Positions 13,184-36,335 of a stretch of 38,630 bases of DNA are shown here, in pieces. The notes below the pieces were generated by a model that ran no database searches, was not told where the DNA came from, and saw only the letters and a list, made by a program, of their open reading frames with translations. The stretch lies in NCBI GenBank assembly GCA_001795735.1, contig MGKQ01000001.1, forward strand, positions 105,006 through 143,635, given 5' to 3'. A program made the translations under genes and the position numbers. Each line of letters begins with the position of its first letter. The stretch's first letter is position 1. The DNA is from Candidatus Yanofskybacteria bacterium RIFCSPLOWO2_02_FULL_41_13. Lineage in GTDB: Bacteria; Patescibacteriota; Minisyncoccia; 2-02-FULL-40-12; GWA2-44-9.

Positions 13184-13225
13184 CCCCGAAAAGCCTTATA
13201 ATACCCCTAGTTATGAGGTCCTAGA
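13184..13225 (+). repeat. 42-bp direct repeat, left copy
   Basis: ccccgaaaagccttataatacccctagttatgaggtcctaga; 41/42 identical to 15670-15711. Confidence 0.95.
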
Positions 13226-13326
13226 CCAGGCATGCCAGCAGAATTGAACACTCTCAAACCTTTGAAATTATTTTACCAAATCTGATACACAAATCCAAGA
13301 AGCAAAATCTGCGGCGGGATTCGCTC

Positions 13327-13377: not shown

Positions 13378-13403
13378 TCAAAAACGCTGAATTATAGACG
13401 AAT
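13378..13403 (+). repeat. 26-bp inverted repeat, left arm
   Basis: tcaaaaacgctgaattatagacgaat; exact reverse complement at 15384-15409. Confidence 0.95.
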
Positions 13404-13496: not shown

Positions 13497-15323
13497 TTGT
13501 CCACAAGAAAACAGTTCGTTCAGCAGGCATGGGCCATTTTCGGCCCGTTCAAATGGAGGATCTTGTTGGTCCTCGCCATGATCTCGGCGGGTCAGGCCTT
13601 GATGCTGATCAGTCCGTACATTCAAGGCATGATCATCGACAACATCACTCAAGGTGTGACGATGCATCAGACCTACTGGCTGATCGCCTTGGCTGGGTTC
13701 ATCATGACCTTCAGCCACTGGGCGATTCAGTACACCAGAGAGCGATACGAGACCGACAAGCTTGAGTTCAACATCGACGAAATGGCGAGCGATCACACGA
13801 TGTCTCGAATGCTGACGCTTTCAGTAGGCCAGCACAACACACTTCACTCCGGTTTGAAGTACAGCATTATCAACCGGGGCCAGCACTCGCTCACCTCGCT
13901 GGTGTTCATGCTTGTCTACGAGATCGTACCGACGGCAAGTCGAGCACTCTTGATGACAGCAGCGATCTGTTGGCTGAGTCTGACGATGGGCGTCATCGTC
14001 CTTTCTGCCGTCGTGATCTTCACGGGTCTGACGCTTTGGCAGAATCATCTCTTCGGCAAGGACTTGAAAAAGCTGGAGAGGATGTGGAACAAGGAATCCA
14101 AGTTCCGGAACGAAATCATTCAACACATCAGTCATGTACTGGTGAACGCTCAAGAGAAGAAGGCTCGGGCTGAAGCCGACGCAAAGTACGAGGAAACGGT
14201 CGGCTTCGCAAAACCAGTCTGGCTCCGCTTCATCATATACGCCTATCTTCGCTCGATGGTCATCATCGTCGCGCGAATAGCCGTGATAGTGATCGGCGCC
14301 TACTACGTCTACAACGGCCGGTTCAGCGTCGGCACGATTGTCGTCTTCTGGGCCTGGTCAAGCAACGCCTTCGATGGCTTGTGGATCATCGGACATCTTC
14401 ACCGCCAAATCATCAGGATGTGGACTTCCATCAGGAGGTACTGCGAATTCCTGGCGATGGAAAGCGACGTGAAGGTGGTCTCAAATCCGGTTCTCTTGAA
14501 TCCGATTCAAGGCCGGATCGAAGTGAGAGACGTGTCGTTCACCTACGACAGCCGTATGCCGATCTCGATGCACGATGACGATGATGAGTTCGAGACAGTT
14601 CAAGCCAAGGAGAAGTCAACGAAGCCTGCGCTTCAAGGCATTTCTCTGGTCATTGAACCAGGCGAGACCATCGCTTTCGTCGGCGAGACCGGCTGCGGAA
14701 AGACTACTCTGGCCAATCTCTTGGTTCGCTCAAGCGATCCAACGACGGGTCAGATTCTGATCGACGGCCAGGATCTTCGGGTGATCGATCTCGAAAAGTT
14801 CCGACAGAAGGTCGGTATCGTAGAACAATACGTGCCGCTCTTCGACCGGAGCATTCGTGACAATATCCTCTATGGTCTCAATGGGAAAGCTAAGGATGTG
14901 ACCCCAGAGGAGCTGGAGCGGATTTCCAAGATCGCTCAGATCAGTCGGTTCTCGCACAAGCTTGAAAAAGGGTTCGACACCCTGATCGGTGAGCGCGGGA
15001 TCAAGCTGTCCGGTGGTGAACGCCAGCGCATCGGGATTGCCCGAGCGCTGATCAAAGACCCCGCGATTCTTATCTTCGACGAGGCAACCAGTTCGCTGGA
15101 TGCCGGAGTCGAAGCCGAGATCCGAGATGCGATCAACCAAGCATCCAAGGGACGGACGACGATCATCATCGCTCATCGCTTCTCGACGATCCGATACGCA
15201 AATCGGATCATCGTGATGGACGACGGGCGAATCATAGGCCAGGGCAAACACGACGAGCTGTATCAGTCGTGCCAGTCCTACCAGCGCTTGGCAGATCACC
15301 AGGTGGCGGGATTCATTAACTAA
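13497..15323 (+). CDS. ABC transporter, fused permease-ATPase (exporter type)
   Basis: N-terminal TM domain, Walker A GETGCGKTT, signature LSGGERQR, Walker B AILIFDEATSSLD; TTG start with SD gggagg. Confidence 0.95.
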   Translation: MSTRKQFVQQAWAIFGPFKWRILLVLAMISAGQALMLISPYIQGMIIDNITQGVTMHQTYWLIALAGFIMTFSHWAIQYTRERYETDKLEFNIDEMASDHTMSRMLTLSVGQHNTLHSGLKYSIINRGQHSLTSLVFMLVYEIVPTASRALLMTAAICWLSLTMGVIVLSAVVIFTGLTLWQNHLFGKDLKKLERMWNKESKFRNEIIQHISHVLVNAQEKKARAEADAKYEETVGFAKPVWLRFIIYAYLRSMVIIVARIAVIVIGAYYVYNGRFSVGTIVVFWAWSSNAFDGLWIIGHLHRQIIRMWTSIRRYCEFLAMESDVKVVSNPVLLNPIQGRIEVRDVSFTYDSRMPISMHDDDDEFETVQAKEKSTKPALQGISLVIEPGETIAFVGETGCGKTTLANLLVRSSDPTTGQILIDGQDLRVIDLEKFRQKVGIVEQYVPLFDRSIRDNILYGLNGKAKDVTPEELERISKIAQISRFSHKLEKGFDTLIGERGIKLSGGERQRIGIARALIKDPAILIFDEATSSLDAGVEAEIRDAINQASKGRTTIIIAHRFSTIRYANRIIVMDDGRIIGQGKHDELYQSCQSYQRLADHQVAGFIN

Positions 15324-15383: not shown

Positions 15384-15409
15384 ATTCGTCTATAATTCAG
15401 CGTTTTTGA
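15384..15409 (-). repeat. 26-bp inverted repeat, right arm
   Basis: attcgtctataattcagcgtttttga. Confidence 0.95.
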
Positions 15410-15669: not shown

Positions 15670-15711
15670 CCCCGAAAACCCTTATAATACCCCTAGTTAT
15701 GAGGTCCTAGA
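15670..15711 (+). repeat. 42-bp direct repeat, right copy
   Basis: ccccgaaaacccttataatacccctagttatgaggtcctaga. Confidence 0.95.
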
Positions 15712-15767
15712 TCGGGGGCATGAACTAAAATTCCAACTTCGTCCGGTAATCTGCTATAATATCTCTA

Positions 15768-17860: not shown

Positions 17861-18844
17861 TTAAACTTTGAGAAATCTTCTGATGGCGATGGTACTTGAA
17901 GCAACACCGAGGAGAATACCGGCTGAAAAAACAAGAATAATATACTGAAAAGCATTCGAACCAAAATACCCCATCAGGCTGGCATTGGGCATTAGCATCT
18001 CCATTTTAGGCGAGACGAGATAAACAACTGGATAAAAAATAACCAGAGTTACAACTGCCGCGAACATTCCGTACAATCCTCCCTCAACCAGAAAAGGAGC
18101 TTTGATGTGCCAGCTGGAACCGCCGACCAATTTCATTATCTCTATCTCCTGTCTCTGATTGAAAATTGTCAGTCTGATTGTATTAAAAGTAACCAGTACC
18201 GCTACCAACGCCAAAGCCATGGTTAAAATAAAGCCCCAATTCTGAAGACCGGTGGAGATACTCTCGACTCTGCTTATAACCTGCTCATTCTCGTAGAAAT
18301 TTATTTTATCGATAAGGCTTCTGAATTTATTGGCCTCAAGATACGTGACGATAGCAGAGTATTGGGAAGTTTCGGTGGCCTTTATATTCAAAGATGCTTG
18401 AAGAGGATTAGAGCCTAGTTCAGCCAAAGATTCTTGTATCAATACGTCTCCGGCGTGATTTGCTTTAAACCCTTCCAGGGCCTGCTCGCGTGAAATATAT
18501 TCAACGCGAACAACTTCTTCCAGTTCATCAATATCTTCTTTTATTTTCATTATTTCTTCTTCGGTTGCGTCAGGCTTAAAGTATGCCGTAATATCGACTT
18601 TTTCCTGCAAAGAAGTGACAACTTTCAGTGAAAGAAAGTTTATTGCTATTAAAGCCGAGAATAAAAGCAAAACTAAAACCATCACTCCGGTCGTGCCCAA
18701 ACTTAAATAACTGTTTCTCTTAAAATTCGTCCATCCCGTTGACCAAATTCTTTTTAAACTCTCCTTCATCCCGTACGAAGTAGCCCCGCCGAGGTCCTTT
18801 GGACTCGCGACTTTGTCGCGAGCGAGACTTCGTACGGGATTCAT
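17861..18844 (-). CDS. ftsX: Cell division protein FtsX; true start may be MKESLKRIW near 18769
   Basis: FtsX-like permease architecture directly downstream of ftsE; N-terminal 25 aa come from a palindromic element. Confidence 0.9.
   Translation of the reverse strand: MNPVRSLARDKVASPKDLGGATSYGMKESLKRIWSTGWTNFKRNSYLSLGTTGVMVLVLLLFSALIAINFLSLKVVTSLQEKVDITAYFKPDATEEEIMKIKEDIDELEEVVRVEYISREQALEGFKANHAGDVLIQESLAELGSNPLQASLNIKATETSQYSAIVTYLEANKFRSLIDKINFYENEQVISRVESISTGLQNWGFILTMALALVAVLVTFNTIRLTIFNQRQEIEIMKLVGGSSWHIKAPFLVEGGLYGMFAAVVTLVIFYPVVYLVSPKMEMLMPNASLMGYFGSNAFQYIILVFSAGILLGVASSTIAIRRFLKV
18768..18840. repeat. 73-bp palindromic element, copy A
   Basis: 14-bp perfect ends atcccgtacgaagt/acttcgtacgggat with inner hairpins gtcc-ttt-ggac and ctcgcgac-ttt-gtcgcgag. 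Confidence 0.92.
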
Positions 18845-26869: not shown

Positions 26870-26892
26870 TATTCAACAAAATATGCGATCGC
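26870..26892. repeat. 23-bp half copy of the 38-bp palindrome
   Basis: tattcaacaaaatatgcgatcgc, abuts stop codon of the PaaX/Cas2-like gene. Confidence 0.95.
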
Positions 26893-27480
26893 TTAAAACG
26901 TTGAAATATTAAATAGCTTACGTAATCGCATCTCTTCATCAATCGCATCTGCCACTAGAACACTGACATTTGGCTCTACTTCAAAAACTTTTCTTAGAAA
27001 AAATATCTCATCAAGACACTCCCACGGATGAATAAACACGCTTTTCTGTAGCTTATAAAATCCCATATTCTCCAACTTTCTACGCAATGCCTCCCGAGCG
27101 CTTTTCTTCTTATCCGGAATATCGAAAATAACCACCCGCCATTTACTATCCCACTTCTCCATTGGTTCTATCTTTAGGTTATCCAAATCAAATTTCTTTA
27201 TCCGGTCAATTCCTTTCCCAATAATTTTAATAGTAATCCCCGATTCATCCTCTTTAACCACCTTAATATATTTTTTCTTCCTTAAATACCATAGATATTT
27301 ACTAAATTGAGAACGGGCCAGTTTAAGTCTTCTTTTTTCTATATGCTTGCCTATTCCTTTTATTAGAACCTCTGCCCCTCTTGGCGAGGAGCTAAGTGCA
27401 ACAAATGCCATTCCCGTCAGTCCAATTATTCTAAGAATATCCAGAGCTAAATTTTTAGTTTTATTTCCATTGATTCCCAT
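26893..27480 (-). CDS. PaaX-like / Cas2-fold regulator-type protein
   Basis: N-terminal winged-helix-like segment plus WRVVIFDIPDKKKSAREALRRKLENMGFYKLQKSVFIHPW, typical of the PaaX/Cas2-like ferredoxin domain. Confidence 0.75.
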   Translation of the reverse strand: MGINGNKTKNLALDILRIIGLTGMAFVALSSSPRGAEVLIKGIGKHIEKRRLKLARSQFSKYLWYLRKKKYIKVVKEDESGITIKIIGKGIDRIKKFDLDNLKIEPMEKWDSKWRVVIFDIPDKKKSAREALRRKLENMGFYKLQKSVFIHPWECLDEIFFLRKVFEVEPNVSVLVADAIDEEMRLRKLFNISTF

Positions 27481-27563: not shown

Positions 27564-27601
27564 TATTCAACAAAATATGCGATCGCATATTTTGTTGAAT
27601 A
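27564..27601. repeat. 38-bp perfect palindrome with GCGATCGC core
   Basis: TATTCAACAAAATATGCGATCGCATATTTTGTTGAATA. Confidence 0.97.
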
Positions 27602-27663: not shown

Positions 27664-29982
27664 CTAGAGGCCAAGGAGGTAAAGACGTTTTATTTCGTCG
27701 GTGGAAAGGACGCGGTCGTAGATACGGACTTCGTCGACCTTCCCATCAAAAGTATTTGAATTGGCACCAAAAACTCCAATACCAAGTAGCATATTAACCG
27801 TATTATCGTCGTCCTGAACGCCGCCAGCACTCTGAGTTTTCTGGTACCCAACTTCAACACCATCAATATATATATGAACGCCGGAAGCAGAAGTTGAACC
27901 ATCCCAAGTAACCACAGCATGCTGCCATTTATTCAAAGTAACCGTATTATCATTAGCAACCACATGTAAATCAGTACCGGAAGAAGGTACAAACAATGTA
28001 AGAGCATTGGTGCGATCTGTGCCGTCATCACCCGTAGAGCCGAATCTGAAACCAAGACCATCGATACCAGGGCCATTCCCATCACCTTTCACCAATATCC
28101 CACTCCTAGCATTCTCTCCTTCGCTCCTAGGATAGATCCATGCAGAAATAGTGACCGGGCCAAGATTATCAAGTAATGTACCCGACCCGACATCAACATA
28201 GTCATTGCTAGCATCAAAATCCAGCGCCGTACCAAGGCGGGGTTTACTCATTACCCAGTCGGTAGCGGGATCCATACTGGTCAACCGGCCGTCACTATTG
28301 TTGCCCGACTGGTCAAAAGCTATCGCTCCGCCTTTACCGAAATTAAAATCCCAATAGCCGACAAGGCCGTTGGAGATGGGAACTGTGGCGATTTTCGGCT
28401 GAGTCAGGTTATATAAACGTTTTATCTCGTCGGCCGACAGCGCGCGGTTGTAGATGCGGACTTCATCTAGTCGACCAGAGAAATAGTACCAAGAATTGTT
28501 AGTAGAAGGCCACTGATTTGTATAAGCCGCCCCCAGAAGATACACATAGCCATTATTTCCATACGGATCCTGACTAATAGTTTGAGAATCTACTTCGACT
28601 CCGTCGATATAAAGCCTCTCTACCCCCGAAGTATACATAGCCGTAGCATGGTGCCACTTGTTATCTCTATAATCTGTCCCCGATGTGGTATTTTGATTAT
28701 AGTCACCATGCCAGAAAAAGCTGGCTCTAATATTGCCACCAGAATCTACATATAAGGCAGGTACATATTCGTTTGGAGCAGATGGTGGAGATGCACTTTC
28801 TGTTTGACCTAATATACCGCCAGAAGAAGAAGTCCTGAACCATATACTAAATGTCAAATTGTAATTATTTGTAATACAAGACCCAATACTACATTCAGGG
28901 TAGTTAAATGGTTGCGTGGGAATCTGCACATAATCATTACTCCCGTCGAAATCTAGAGCGGTACCGAGGCCGGATTTGCCCACTACCCAGTCCGTTGCCG
29001 GATCCATACTCGTCAATCGGCCGTTGTTACCATTCCCCGATAAATCCCAAGCGATATCAGTGCCTTTGCCTGAGTTGAAGTTCCAATAACCGACGAGGCC
29101 GTTGGAGAGCGGAACAGTGGCGATTTTCGGCGCGGTCAGATTGTAGAGACGTTTGATTTCTGTCGCCAAGAGCGCGCGGTTGTAGATGCGGACTTCGTCG
29201 ATGAGACCGTTGAAAAACGTATTGACATTTGCATTAGCTCCAACCTTAAGGGTATTAGCTCCATTTCTAATTTGAGATGGGACAGTTCCACCCAAAGCAC
29301 CATTATTAAGCACTCCGTCTAAATAAAGGTTGAGGGTGCCTGCCGTTCCATTGAAAACAACCACAACATGATACCAGACGCCAATGCTGACAGCACTAGA
29401 GGACGATCTATTGGCATCGCTTGAGCCAGCTGTATTTGTTACTTCCACTTTTAGGATCTTTGTAGAATTAACTATCGTTAGTCTGTATTGCCTGTCTGCA
29501 CTAATAAATTTAGATATGATGGCTAAGTCTTCAACACCAAAACTGCTTAGTCTAAACCACGCACTGAATGTGGCCGCTGTTGTAGGCTCAACAGTATCAC
29601 CCATATCAACATAATCATTACTCCCGTCGAAATCTAGAGCGGTGCCGAGGCCGGATTTGCCCACTACCCAGTCGGTGGCGGGATCCATGCTAGTCAACTT
29701 GCCGTTATTCCCGTTACCCGATAAATCCCAAGCGATGTCAGTGCCCTTTCCTGAGTTGAAGTTCCAATAACCGACGAGGCCTAAATTATTCATAGGGAGA
29801 GAGATGGTGGCGGCGGCATTTACTCCGATAGGAGCAGAAAGCACCAAAAAACAAATTCCAAATAACAAATAAGCTCCAAACTTTAATAATTCAAATCTCA
29901 AACTTTTGGAATTTTGATTATTGAAATTTATTTGGGATTTGGAATTTGTCATTTGGAACTTATTTGAAAGCCCAGCTTTCAA
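27664..29982 (-). CDS. Secreted protein with three LamG (ConA-like) modules
   Basis: Three NGLVGYWNF...DEVRIYNRALS...EIKRLYNL modules; N-terminal hydrophobic segment. Confidence 0.9.
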   Translation of the reverse strand: MKAGLSNKFQMTNSKSQINFNNQNSKSLRFELLKFGAYLLFGICFLVLSAPIGVNAAATISLPMNNLGLVGYWNFNSGKGTDIAWDLSGNGNNGKLTSMDPATDWVVGKSGLGTALDFDGSNDYVDMGDTVEPTTAATFSAWFRLSSFGVEDLAIISKFISADRQYRLTIVNSTKILKVEVTNTAGSSDANRSSSSAVSIGVWYHVVVVFNGTAGTLNLYLDGVLNNGALGGTVPSQIRNGANTLKVGANANVNTFFNGLIDEVRIYNRALLATEIKRLYNLTAPKIATVPLSNGLVGYWNFNSGKGTDIAWDLSGNGNNGRLTSMDPATDWVVGKSGLGTALDFDGSNDYVQIPTQPFNYPECSIGSCITNNYNLTFSIWFRTSSSGGILGQTESASPPSAPNEYVPALYVDSGGNIRASFFWHGDYNQNTTSGTDYRDNKWHHATAMYTSGVERLYIDGVEVDSQTISQDPYGNNGYVYLLGAAYTNQWPSTNNSWYYFSGRLDEVRIYNRALSADEIKRLYNLTQPKIATVPISNGLVGYWDFNFGKGGAIAFDQSGNNSDGRLTSMDPATDWVMSKPRLGTALDFDASNDYVDVGSGTLLDNLGPVTISAWIYPRSEGENARSGILVKGDGNGPGIDGLGFRFGSTGDDGTDRTNALTLFVPSSGTDLHVVANDNTVTLNKWQHAVVTWDGSTSASGVHIYIDGVEVGYQKTQSAGGVQDDDNTVNMLLGIGVFGANSNTFDGKVDEVRIYDRVLSTDEIKRLYLLGL

Positions 29983-29984
29983 AT
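29962..29984. repeat. Inverted repeat atttgaaagc-cca-gctttcaaat at the LamG gene junction
   Basis: 10-bp perfect stem spanning the putative TTG start. Confidence 0.85.
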
Positions 29985-29985
29985 A

Positions 29986-32187
29986 TCAATTCCCCAGCAG
30001 ATAGAGACGTTTTATTTCCTCGGCCGACAGTGCGCGGTTGTAGATACGCACTTCGTCGATTTGACCGTTAAAGTAACATCCGCTGCACAGAGCCCCTATA
30101 TAGGGACTGTAACCAGAATCTGAAGTTCTGGAGCCACTTCCAGCTATGTTAGCTAAAGTTTTATTAACGCCATTAACATACCATTTAGCATTTGTCCCAG
30201 TTACATTGCCATCCCAAGTAAAAACAACATGATGCCACTTATTTGCAGTGAGCAAATCACCATTAGGAATATAGAGGGGATGTCCACTTGTAGTATCGAC
30301 ATCAAAGTCCAGTGTTGCACCACTACGACGCAATACCCATCCATTATCTACGGGGTAAACAGCCTCACCTTTTCCAATAATAACCCCGACACCACTTAAA
30401 TTGCTCGGTTTAATCCAGGCGGATATGGATAATGGGCTAACATTAACAAGCGTACTTGTGGGTAGTTTCACATAGTCATTACTCCCGTCAAAATCCAAGG
30501 CAGTGCCGAGGCCGGATTTACTGTCTACCCAATCGGTCGCAGGATCCATACTCGTCAGGGTGCCGTTGTTGCCGTTAGAGGTCTTATCAAAAGCTATCTT
30601 ACCACCTTTTCCAAAATTAAAGTCCCAATACCCGACAAGACCGTTGGAGAGCGGAACTGTGGCGATTTTGGGCTGGGTGAGGTTATACAAACGTTTGATT
30701 TCTGTTGCTGAAAGGACGCGGTTGTAGATGCGGACTTCGTCGATGAGGCCATTCCAAAATTGTGTTGGAGCTCCAGATGACATCACTGCTCCTACGGCAA
30801 CTTTTTCAGCTGTAGCCGTGGGGCCAGTTGATACATTGGAATTGTCCAGAACACCATTCCAATAAATGCGCCACGTCGTTGCATCTCGCGTTCCCACAAT
30901 ATGTGTCCACGTATTTGCGGATAATGTACTAATAGACTGAACACCAAAACTACTAGGATTAACAAATGTCTGAAGACTCACATTCCCGCCAGCAGTAGTT
31001 GTTTTCATTTCCCATTGGGTATTTAGTGCATCGTATCCTTTTGAAATGATTTGGTTGGCATTAGCTACAGTAGAAATTCTAACCCAGGCACTCAGTGAAA
31101 AATTCGATGTAAGATTGAGCGTTGATGGTGTTCCCATATCCACATAATCATTACTCCCGTCGAAATCTAGTGCCGTGCCGAGACCGGTTTTAGAGTCTAC
31201 CCAGTCAGTAGCTGGATCCATGCTGGTCAACCGGCCGTTATTCCCGTTGCCTGATAAATCCCAAGCGATGTCTTTTCCTTTTCCTGAATTAAAATCCCAA
31301 TAACCGACGAGGCCGTTTGAAATCGGAACCGTGGCGATTTTTGGTTGAGTGAGATTGTAGAGACGTTTGATTTCTGTCGCCGAAAGCGCGCGGTTGTAGA
31401 TACGGAATTCATCCAACGTAGCACCAACCGGACTACTTGGCCTGGTACCGTTAAAATTACTTGACATTAAAGTTAACCCTACCGAAGAAGCCCCAGTTAA
31501 TAAACTAGCTGAGTTGGTTTGTGTATTGGTCGAGTCTAAAACACCGTTAATATATATCCTTCTCTGACCAGTGCCGAAGATAAGCACAACGTGATACCAG
31601 GTTCCCGCTGTCCATGTTGTCCAATTTGAAGTACTATTATAATCACTTCCTCCTGTTTTAACATCAAGAAAAAGCTGACCGCCAGTAAATCGTACAAAAA
31701 CATATTCAGTTATCGCGACAGGATTTGCGTTAATCCAAAAGATGTATCGGTCTTCTAATGACGCCACGCCGGGTTTAAACCAGAAAGAAATCGTGTTATT
31801 TGTCCATAAAGATGCATCTAATGATTCCACGGCAATGTAATCATTACTCCCGTCAAAATCCAGGGCAGTGCCGAGGCCGGATTTTGAATCAACCCAGTCA
31901 GTAGCGGGATCCATAGTAGTAAGTTTTCCGTTATTGCCATTCCCCGATAAATCCCAAGCGATGGCAGTACCTTTTCCTGAGTTGAAGTTCCAATAACCGA
32001 CGAGGCCGAGGTTGTTGACGGGACGAGAGATTGTTGTGGCGGCCTGCACCTCGTTAGAGGTGCTTAAAATAACCAATAAACAAGAAACAAACACCAAACA
32101 AATTCCAATATTCAATTTCCAAAACCTAAATAGATGACCCCGGCCGAATCTTTTGGTTATTTTATTTTGTATTTTGGTCATTCCCAT
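29986..32187 (-). CDS. Secreted protein with three LamG (ConA-like) modules, paralog of downstream gene
   Basis: Same modular architecture; signal-like N-terminus LNIGICLVFVSCLLVILSTSNEVQAAT. Confidence 0.9.
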   Translation of the reverse strand: MGMTKIQNKITKRFGRGHLFRFWKLNIGICLVFVSCLLVILSTSNEVQAATTISRPVNNLGLVGYWNFNSGKGTAIAWDLSGNGNNGKLTTMDPATDWVDSKSGLGTALDFDGSNDYIAVESLDASLWTNNTISFWFKPGVASLEDRYIFWINANPVAITEYVFVRFTGGQLFLDVKTGGSDYNSTSNWTTWTAGTWYHVVLIFGTGQRRIYINGVLDSTNTQTNSASLLTGASSVGLTLMSSNFNGTRPSSPVGATLDEFRIYNRALSATEIKRLYNLTQPKIATVPISNGLVGYWDFNSGKGKDIAWDLSGNGNNGRLTSMDPATDWVDSKTGLGTALDFDGSNDYVDMGTPSTLNLTSNFSLSAWVRISTVANANQIISKGYDALNTQWEMKTTTAGGNVSLQTFVNPSSFGVQSISTLSANTWTHIVGTRDATTWRIYWNGVLDNSNVSTGPTATAEKVAVGAVMSSGAPTQFWNGLIDEVRIYNRVLSATEIKRLYNLTQPKIATVPLSNGLVGYWDFNFGKGGKIAFDKTSNGNNGTLTSMDPATDWVDSKSGLGTALDFDGSNDYVKLPTSTLVNVSPLSISAWIKPSNLSGVGVIIGKGEAVYPVDNGWVLRRSGATLDFDVDTTSGHPLYIPNGDLLTANKWHHVVFTWDGNVTGTNAKWYVNGVNKTLANIAGSGSRTSDSGYSPYIGALCSGCYFNGQIDEVRIYNRALSAEEIKRLYLLGN

Positions 32188-33791: not shown

Positions 33792-36335
33792 TTATTTTAA
33801 TTTAATATTTATTTCAAAATCCTTTTTCAATTCCGTCTCAAGTACATACAAATCCCCGATTTTATTTAAAGACGGAATAGGATCGGCTAGCCTAAAGTCG
33901 TCTGAGCTTTTAACCGTAAATTTAAACTTCTTCCAATCCATGCCCGGCTGTTTTTGAAAGTAAAAACTGTAACTACTTCCGTCAAAGGGCACGGAATACT
34001 CAAACTCAATCCTCTTAGTCTCCCCGGGTTCAGTTATCATCCAGAAGCCGACACCTTGTTTACCTGCCTCTTCAAATTTATCGACACCGAAGGTTTTGTC
34101 AATCCCGTTCGAAGTAGCCTCGCCGAGGTCCGAAGGACTCGTGCCTTCGGCACGAGCGAGACTTCGAACGGGATCAAAGTAAAAAGTGGATTCAAGACTT
34201 CTGATGTCCTGATCATTTAAAAAGTCCAGCTGGCCATAATTAACTAGGGGTTTGAAATTCGGTAAATCATTTCCTGACATTTCCAGAAGCCTTGCTTCTG
34301 GAGGAAGGAGGATGCGGACGTAGGCCGGGTTTTGGCGGTTATAAAATCCATGTTCTTCATCTCCGCCGTTATGCTTTCGAGTAATTGTAACCCTGTGCTT
34401 AATAACTGGCCGTGAGTCGTTGGTCGTAAGTTGTGAGTTTATCTCAATATAATTATCCGTCACTATATCAGTTTTGGAACCTTTAATATTTGAGAAGTTC
34501 ACGGTCAGATAATCATCGCCGCCCGGCACATTTTTTACTTCACCACCCAGACCGTTACTAACGGCAAATTTTTCCAAATCTTTGTCGTTAAAATAAAACA
34601 TCATATCTTTTTCCTCTAATCCGGCCATCAAACCGCTAAAAATCTTCATCCAATCATCAGAACCGGCTGAGTATAACTTTTCAAGCAATCTCGGGGCAAA
34701 ATCAACGACGATTGATTTTGGCTGTGTCCGATTTTCGCCGTATTCAACTTCTTCCTGAATATTCGCCAGAAAATTATCAGCCGTAAGAGTCCGTCCGTAT
34801 TCCGGCATGGCTATAGGACCAACGACTTTTAAGATTCCGGCAACGATGTCGGGATTGAGAGCGATTACTCCGTCAACTTTATAGCCGGCTTCCTGCGAAA
34901 AAAACCACATTGCCTTTCTGGCTGAGGTTGGAAAGTCAATAAACCAAGCTGAGTCTCTCATGCCCCATGTCGGCGTGATATGCTGAAGCTGTTTCGGCGG
35001 AATGATATTTTTTTTTAACTGGCCGTCCAGATTATATACATCATCAACAAAAAAATCCGACAATCCCCCGCTTGAAAAAGAAACCACTCCATAAGTGCCC
35101 GGAAATCCACCGGTCGGCCTAAGCTCCGAATAATTCTGGAGAAGAACTAAATATTTTTTAGGTTCATCTACGCCTATAATTCCTTCGAGAAAGTCCGTAT
35201 AGCTTTCGGCATCGGCCAAGATTTTTTCAATCAATGGAATTTTTTCCTTAAAATCAATAAGGCTGGCTCTTTTATCTTCAGGCACAGCAGATTCGTCAAT
35301 ATCGGAAATCAGGGCCTTAGCTTTTTCAAAATTGCGGGTCGAGAGAAAGAGAGCGTCCTTAATCTGCCTGACTATAGTGAGGGGTTTTGTTTTGTGACTG
35401 TCGTGAGGATTTAATATGGAGCCCGTTTGGGAAAGCGCGTTTAATGCCTCCGACATGGCCTGTCCGGAGCTGGCTAGAAGTTTTCCGGCTTCAACCATAT
35501 TTTTGGCCGAACTTATTTTACTGACACCAGGCAAATCACCAAATATTCCGGCAATTCCGGCACCCATTAAATTAAGACTCTTGCCGGCTTCGGCAAAATC
35601 ATCATAAGACTTCTGAAAACTAGCCGCCGCTTCGACAAAGTTAAAATCCTTTAGATTTTGCTGGGCTTGCTCAAGGTTCTGAATGGCCATTGAGCTGTCA
35701 CTGACCAGCTCATTTTTTAATGTCAGGCCATAGCTAAAAAGACCGCCTGCCGCCAATGTTAAAAAAAGTAGCTTGAAAAATCTTTTTTTCTTCGGCGGAG
35801 CGAAGTTAAAAGACTTTTTAGAACTTACGATGGGCACCATCGCATCTGCGATGGTGCCCATCGTAACAGCAGATCCAGACGGCGGGTTTTGATAAAAATC
35901 GACTATCTTTTCCTCGACGATAAAACCGGCAATTGAGGCTTTGGGTTTAACAGGTAGAGATTTGAATGAAGACAAATTGGCAACACTTGAGACAACTGGC
36001 GCATGTATGTGAGAAATTATCTTCTTATAAAAATCGTCACTAACTTTTGAATTTTGATCATCGGCTTCTGAAATTCCAGATTCTAGATTCGATATTCCAG
36101 ATTCCATTGCCTTTGGCAATATTGCCCCCGCTTTTGCCAACTCCACTACTGGGTCTTGCTCTGTATTCAAAAGCGCCTCAAGTTCTTCCTGATAGCTCAT
36201 CGGCTCAGCCACCAAGTTACCGATTATATCGCTAACCGAAAAGCTATCGGCTTTTTGGTCGGTCTTTTTGTTATCACCCGCTGAGTACCCCCTTGGTGGA
36301 ATTATATCAATAACTCTTCTTCTAAGTTTAATCAT
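33792..36335 (-). CDS. DUF4012 domain-containing membrane protein
   Basis: YLVLLQNYSELRPTGGFPGTYGVVSFSSG and VDGVIALNPDIVAGILKVVGPI, TM segment FFKLLFLTLAAGGLFSYGL. Confidence 0.92.
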   Translation of the reverse strand: MIKLRRRVIDIIPPRGYSAGDNKKTDQKADSFSVSDIIGNLVAEPMSYQEELEALLNTEQDPVVELAKAGAILPKAMESGISNLESGISEADDQNSKVSDDFYKKIISHIHAPVVSSVANLSSFKSLPVKPKASIAGFIVEEKIVDFYQNPPSGSAVTMGTIADAMVPIVSSKKSFNFAPPKKKRFFKLLFLTLAAGGLFSYGLTLKNELVSDSSMAIQNLEQAQQNLKDFNFVEAAASFQKSYDDFAEAGKSLNLMGAGIAGIFGDLPGVSKISSAKNMVEAGKLLASSGQAMSEALNALSQTGSILNPHDSHKTKPLTIVRQIKDALFLSTRNFEKAKALISDIDESAVPEDKRASLIDFKEKIPLIEKILADAESYTDFLEGIIGVDEPKKYLVLLQNYSELRPTGGFPGTYGVVSFSSGGLSDFFVDDVYNLDGQLKKNIIPPKQLQHITPTWGMRDSAWFIDFPTSARKAMWFFSQEAGYKVDGVIALNPDIVAGILKVVGPIAMPEYGRTLTADNFLANIQEEVEYGENRTQPKSIVVDFAPRLLEKLYSAGSDDWMKIFSGLMAGLEEKDMMFYFNDKDLEKFAVSNGLGGEVKNVPGGDDYLTVNFSNIKGSKTDIVTDNYIEINSQLTTNDSRPVIKHRVTITRKHNGGDEEHGFYNRQNPAYVRILLPPEARLLEMSGNDLPNFKPLVNYGQLDFLNDQDIRSLESTFYFDPVRSLARAEGTSPSDLGEATSNGIDKTFGVDKFEEAGKQGVGFWMITEPGETKRIEFEYSVPFDGSSYSFYFQKQPGMDWKKFKFTVKSSDDFRLADPIPSLNKIGDLYVLETELKKDFEINIKLK
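34102..34174. repeat. 73-bp palindromic element, copy B, inside DUF4012 CDS
   Basis: atcccgttcgaagt/acttcgaacgggat ends; inner hairpins gtcc-gaa-ggac and ctcgtgcc-ttc-ggcacgag. Confidence 0.92.
35825..35866. repeat. 42-bp palindrome inside DUF4012 CDS
   Basis: ttacgatgggcaccatcgca-tc-tgcgatggtgcccatcgtaa, perfect 20-bp arms. Confidence 0.95.

Follow-up and report, generated by a model that had tools for sequence, protein, structure and literature searches.

Mobile DNA inserted in frame is best known from Rickettsia and Wolbachia, where the mechanism of insertion is still open. Rickettsia palindromic elements (RPEs; Ogata 2000), which are reviewed with their Wolbachia counterparts in PMC10969869 and PMC2229807, are small palindromes that lie in frame in many unrelated and often essential genes. 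Each RPE family has one conserved peptide, intergenic copies also occur, and the mobiliser is unknown. For guanylate kinase, enzyme activity with and without an RPE has been compared (PMC2229807). Short palindromes are also found in repair and translation genes as intragenic REPs of the GTAG and CGTC families; their hosts include uvrA, recB, tRNA synthetases and pseudouridine synthases, and in two species recB has an insertion at nearly the same site (PMC3733652). The Correia/NEMIS elements of Neisseria (PMC2229807) form two related size classes, a smaller open class in ORFs and a larger intergenic class with stops in all frames. Bacterial MITEs, such as RUP and ERIC, are non-autonomous and have terminal inverted repeats and a short target duplication.

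We report a 70-bp palindrome that is very probably a non-autonomous, MITE-like mobile element, translated as part of its host genes and resembling RPEs in the way it works, with an enzyme that has not been identified. The palindrome itself, its covariation, the target duplication, the empty sites, the keeping of frame and the spread are read directly from the DNA. Two copies lie in the window, which is the whole stretch of 38,630 nt that was analysed. An earlier note on this DNA had placed 73-nt copies at 18768-18840 and 34102-34174, and both were located there, 85% identical with 11 differences. The location therefore held and the extent did not, as the mobile unit is 70 nt and the 73 nt take in flank bases (Table 1). 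Copy B had been described as in frame on the minus strand, and it does encode FDPVRSLARAEGTSPSDLGEATSNGI within the long ORF, the 70-nt unit contributing PVRSLARAEGTSPSDLGEATSNG. The host protein belongs to DUF4012 (Pfam E 1.7e-26), and the insert falls in its C-terminal beta-rich domain. Copy A gives FtsX the N-terminal addition NPVRSLARDKVASPKDLGGATSYG, provided that the upstream ATG is used.

Table 1. Positions of the two window copies, their target sequences and their host genes.
Feature	Position in window	Strand	Remarks
Copy A, mobile unit, 70 nt	18770..18839	-	At ftsX start codon
Copy A, target duplication TTCAT (reverse complement ATGAA)	18765..18769	.	ATG 18769-18767, presumed original ftsX start
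Copy A, target duplication, second TTCAT	18840..18844	.	ATG 18844-18842, duplicated start codon
ftsX, host gene of copy A	17861..18844	-	FtsX_ECD E 1.5e-16, FtsX E 2.3e-12
Copy B, mobile unit, 70 nt	34104..34173	-	In frame in DUF4012 gene; covariance-model score 98.9 bits
Copy B, left target copy TCAAT	34099..34103	.	4/5 bases the same as in right copy
Copy B, right target copy TCAAA	34174..34178	.	No exact duplication
DUF4012 gene, host of copy B, 847 aa	33792..36335	-	

Both strands of both window copies folded far beyond chance (z -5.6 to -7.2, 0/200 shuffles). Across 29 copies the unit is a branched palindrome with an outer stem of 13 pairs, an inner stem of 4 pairs and two hairpins. In this set 96.8% of the cells were paired and 13 pairs had changes on both sides, values that 0/500 shuffles reached in either case; cells with double changes numbered 54, compared with 13.5 in the shuffles. 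The signal collapsed in a control in which the partners were slid by 1-3 columns. The fold model was drawn from the same 29 sequences and is therefore somewhat favoured in this test. Selection on the fold would produce such covariation, but so would hairpin-templated repair by which the arms stay complementary, and the data do not separate the two. Between the window copies, 10 of the 11 differences are loop or paired changes, as had been claimed for all of them: the pairs 8/66, 41/51 and 43/49 are compensated, and positions 31-33 and 47 differ in loops. The exception is position 19, where copy A has a C.A mismatch and copy B a T-A pair. The earlier note had also concluded that structure rather than sequence is maintained. 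Compensatory changes do keep the structure, but this wording is too strong because there is conservation of sequence too, with columns 83% identical on average and 19 of them invariant. In the arm variants seen most often, TTAG, TACG and TTCG, the left arm always encodes PVRS and the right arm TSNG or TSYG, so that neither fold nor peptide is lost. A search of the window against Rfam at the gathering score returned only tRNAs and no match for the element.

The ends form a terminal inverted repeat of 12 bp (CCCGTTAGAAGT/ACTTCTAACGGG) that is common to several size classes. Exact 5-bp direct repeats flanked 31 of 64 copies when either of two equivalent registers was allowed, and 27/64 in a single register; the null from 2000 shuffles of flanks among copies averaged 6.9 and never exceeded 15. 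Two features expected of a MITE, terminal inverted repeats and target site duplication, are thus present. About half of the 64 copies, copy B included, are without an exact duplication. A six-base duplication was considered and rejected, as it fits fewer copies (12/64). The commonest target is TTCAT, whose reverse complement ATGAA is often a start codon. Since the unit is 70 nt and the duplication 5 bp, the usual net gain is 75 bp, or 25 codons. In 63/64 copies the terminal element base can pair with the last base of the target (T-A 51, C-G 12), which is unexplained and is not predicted by ordinary cut-and-paste. A conserved GTAG occupies element positions 13-16, where a stem has its foot; the two bases that open it never vary and are paired within the outer stem, and do not form an unpaired tag. 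Elements with the same ends and other interiors measure about 50, 76-79, 88 and 109-118 nt, and several members of this group, both short and long, have the same duplication. The longer elements examined had no long open frame, lay outside long ORFs and mostly contained stops. Copies occur in both orientations relative to genes. The 5-bp duplication, the 75-bp arithmetic, the start-codon hotspot described below and the other types with the same ends all go beyond the earlier note.

That note had named two outcomes that would refute it, a lack of insertion polymorphism between orthologues and a lack of additional copies, and neither was met. RuvB was recovered from 27 of the 28 family genomes, with an insert in 4 and an empty site in 23. 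The four fillings share one position and are four different element types (18 to 28 residues) in two genera (L059 in G020, L068 in G043, L120 in G010 and L077 in G022), which means that either a hotspot was hit repeatedly or interiors lying between shared ends were exchanged. Within one genus, RuvB is filled in G022 and empty in G013 and G042. The filled G022 DNA reads CAGATGAA/TCCCG...CGGG/ATGAA/GGATACG, with ATGAA duplicated around the 70-nt unit, and the empty G013 DNA reads CAAATGAA/AGACACG. When DUF4012 orthologues were compared for presence or absence, the site was filled in 2/25, the window's genome (G000) and, with a different element, G010; most of the others were empty there, one stopped short of the site and one had a short insert of another kind. 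In an FAD-linked oxidase the insert is complete in G041 (L070), and the corresponding position in G043 (L189) holds VTSNGID, apparently a remnant.

Some copies are composite. The HrcA copy (L006 / L042, G000:C11) contains a further nested 45-nt hairpin with the frame kept (118 nt matched, 40 codons). The pseudouridine synthase gene L019 (G026:C6:88845-89057) has two adjacent copies where G029 (L017) has one, and a further element with CCCGTTAGAG ends is inserted in one of the pair.

Many further copies were found in the window's own genome and in related genomes. The own genome has at least 5 copies besides the window pair: BLAST gave 5 full copies (E 1e-32 to 1e-9) plus diverged ones, and a covariance model built from 29 copies gave 7 strong matches. 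BLAST matches occurred in 14 of the 41 genomes searched, the own genome among them. Covariance-model matches with E <= 0.001 were present in 18 of the 28 family genomes scanned, and none was found there in several sister genera. Some matches of ~30 bits are other element types or the palindrome picked up again on the reverse strand, so the match counts in family genomes are not counts of 73-nt copies. In a phylum sample, strong covariance-model matches were obtained in 6/382 genomes, four of them from other families. A pattern scan of named genomes placed most copies in Candidatus Yanofskybacteria, with single copies in Liptonbacteria, Azambacteria, a Parcubacteria-group record and one further bacterium. 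The sequences come from draft genomes, and every one of the named relatives was assembled from a metagenome. The core pattern had no match in viral contigs; the 14-nt end gave 59 single unpaired matches in 2.9 million viral contigs, which were judged to be chance by a rough estimate.

Of the 64 copies, 46 are gene-linked (in ORFs >= 140 codons), and by a simple rule 23 of these are at start codons and 23 elsewhere. Only about 7% of the ATGAA sites in the window are start codons (8/112), so that 23/46 is a clear excess, which may reflect targeting or survival. N-terminal REP cases may be partly extragenic (PMC3733652), and by analogy the same caution may apply to the start-codon copies here. 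From the 23 non-start copies, 18 clearly interior ones were picked by inspection. Their net length was a multiple of three in 18/18 (P = 0.005, with reference to the 14/64 copies overall that are not divisible by three), and the PVRS phase was used in 17/18 (p = 7e-5 versus equal use of the two usually open phases); phase 0 is about as open as the PVRS phase. These p-values are approximate because the set was picked by inspection and includes the shared sites L017/L019 and L068/L077. The lengths of the interior copies and the existence of empty sites support the earlier proposal of a spreading element that leaves reading frames open. The insert peptide, PVRS...TSNG, is hydrophilic. That it is translated and tolerated is inferred, without protein or transcript evidence.

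The Pfam families of the hosts are DUF4012, YdjC, HrcA, Pyr_redox_2, PseudoU_synth_2 (an RluD-type synthase), SecA, GH1, NusA, UvrC, RuvB, FtsX, IPP transferase, M16 peptidase, the leucyl-tRNA synthetase (LeuRS) editing domain, the class II (F) synthetase core, MraW/RsmH, FAD oxidase and DsbD_TM. SecA, RuvB and NusA are essential proteins. RuvB and SecA aligned to solved relatives before and after the insert, and no more than two chain residues separated the matched stretches; in SecA the duplicated residues MR correspond to the target codons. NADH dehydrogenase likewise aligned with a solved structure on both sides of its insert, and the gap there spans few if any chain residues; UvrC and the pseudouridine synthase gave compatible, weaker alignments. 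In the AlphaFold model of the DUF4012 domain (mean pLDDT 78.8) the insert, residues 177-203, is the only segment below pLDDT 50. The model of RuvB with its insert was poor overall (mean pLDDT 56) and is of no use beyond the observation that the insert, between two helices, has no predicted structure.

The means of movement is inferred. The most economical reading is that a transposase not yet found acts in trans on the shared ends. A search of 28 genomes for an autonomous partner with exact ends returned only short pairs, and no partner was found in the regions around solitary ends. Transposases of the rve family were present in 8/18 genomes and DDE_Tnp_1 in 2/18, and none of the genes of these families examined in the 18 genomes had matching ends. 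The search was limited to exact ends and to these two families, with diverged ends and other families outside its scope. The main rival is a hairpin or single-strand route other than standard DDE transposition, in which the folded unit would be attached to the target and would take its last base from it by copying. The nearly invariant terminal complementarity, the very strong fold and the lack of matching ends at any examined DDE gene all speak for this route, which we nevertheless regard as rather improbable; the complementarity would also arise if the outermost pair belonged to the palindrome and the target duplication were 4 bp. A match of the fifth base in the right flank argues against that 4-bp reading, without being decisive. 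Y1_Tnp enzymes act on folded single strands beside a GTAG tag. The GTAG at the stem foot and six Y1_Tnp matches in the own genome would be compatible with a REP/REPIN-type element spread by a RAYT (Y1_Tnp), but the copy-rich genomes G003, G041, G013 and G022 have no Y1_Tnp match, and no element end was found in the flanks examined at the six own-genome loci. GTAG is not a free tag here, as its G and T are taken up by the outer stem, and the element has target duplications, which Y1 enzymes are not known to produce. With the gene absent from nearly complete copy-rich genomes and no linkage, RAYT is largely refuted as a general mobiliser, and this explanation is very unlikely.

Two further explanations were weighed. 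A strong hairpin within the coding sequence of highly conserved proteins might indicate that the inserts are spliced out like introns or bypassed like mitochondrial byp elements, leaving the proteins unchanged. Such processing requires neither a length divisible by three nor an open frame, yet the interior copies keep the first without exception and one phase with a single exception, and the longer, mostly stop-bearing classes are found only outside long ORFs; we give it hardly any credence. Still harder to sustain is an old, vertically inherited structured element (a terminator, regulatory RNA or attenuator) kept for its function. It would suit the maintained structure and the half of the gene-linked copies at gene starts, but not the two orientations, the mostly empty orthologous sites, the unrelated host genes, the lack of an Rfam family match or the target duplications at the flanks.

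Under the preferred reading, a non-autonomous mobile palindrome, the 70-bp unit inserts at short TTCAT-like targets with 5 bp duplicated. The PVRS...TSNG frame is open in either orientation and the common form adds 75 bp, so that the host gene stays in frame. The host protein would gain a hydrophilic, probably flexible loop of ~25 residues or, where the target is the start codon ATGAA, an N-terminal extension instead. Harmful copies would be lost, and the remaining insertions would lie in tolerant loops and at start codons. A bolder possibility, which we think unlikely and offer only tentatively, is a Patescibacteria-specific route that inserts folded hairpins with a preference for TTCAT sites, start codons among them. 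The terminal base would be a copy of the target's, interiors could replace one another at a single site (the four types in RuvB), and essential proteins would thereby acquire exchangeable modules of ~18-29 residues.

Other repeats and inserts were observed. In L181 (G000:C2:2000-8000) a ~50-nt palindrome ending ACTTCTAACGGGA lies near a LAGLIDADG_2 endonuclease ORF (Pfam E 8.6e-7) and near a second, similar-looking ORF. Possible in-frame inserts of other sequence occur in L151, L070, L199 and L154 (FAEASADRQGEP, PFDDAQGKPEIS, LVLRSPPKADEVGLSW and SGAGQASLAK), with a hairpin fold in L151, L199 and L154 and weakly in L070. In the window, similar 36-nt repeats (86%) at 26870-26905 and 27564-27599 bracket the ORF 26893-27480, the second being a near-perfect palindrome (TTCAACAAAATATGCGATCGCATATTTTGTTGAA). 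The 608-aa ORF 13497-15323 is surrounded by a 47-nt direct repeat (13184-13230 and 15670-15716, 94%) and a perfect 26-nt inverted repeat (13378-13403 and 15384-15409), an arrangement that would suit a mobile or duplicated unit. Two neighbouring large ORFs at 27664-32187 share a 278-nt repeat that is present six times (identity 64-83%), probably as repeated domains of surface proteins.

The same in-frame insertion strategy is thus met in the small, streamlined genomes of Patescibacteria, with a readable target duplication and pairs of filled and empty sites. The movement of the palindrome, start-codon preference versus survival, and the feeding of new loops into essential proteins are now testable. 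For annotation, PVRS...TSNG stretches in these proteins should be taken as mobile DNA and not as conserved domains. No description of such an element in Patescibacteria was found in the open literature searched, an absence that is not proof of novelty.

Compared with the bacterial MITEs, the element has no parent insertion sequence that could be found and shows extensive internal covariation. The two size classes of Correia/NEMIS have a parallel in the 73-nt and 111-118-nt classes here, whereas the Neisseria elements have TA termini and 24-bp inverted repeats and measure 107/155 bp (PMC2229807). The repeated filling of RuvB recalls recB among the intragenic REPs; REPs, in contrast, are single stems of 20-40 bp with a terminal GTAG or CGTC tag, their GTAG types are tied to RAYT genes, and no target duplication is mentioned for them (PMC3733652). 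The earlier note had called RPEs comparable in concept, rightly so, as this is an in-frame palindrome in many unrelated genes. By analogy the element appears to work like an RPE, although membership is not claimed. The phylum differs and so, presumably, does the sequence, and at 70 bp against 105-150 bp for RPEs (PMC2229807) the unit is shorter than the RPE-1 type. The element also has a clear 5-bp duplication and a target consensus, for which PMC2229807 enters '?' for RPEs, as well as a start-codon hotspot and several interiors with one set of ends. With these differences, it is apparently an undescribed counterpart of the Rickettsia palindromic elements in Parcubacteria.
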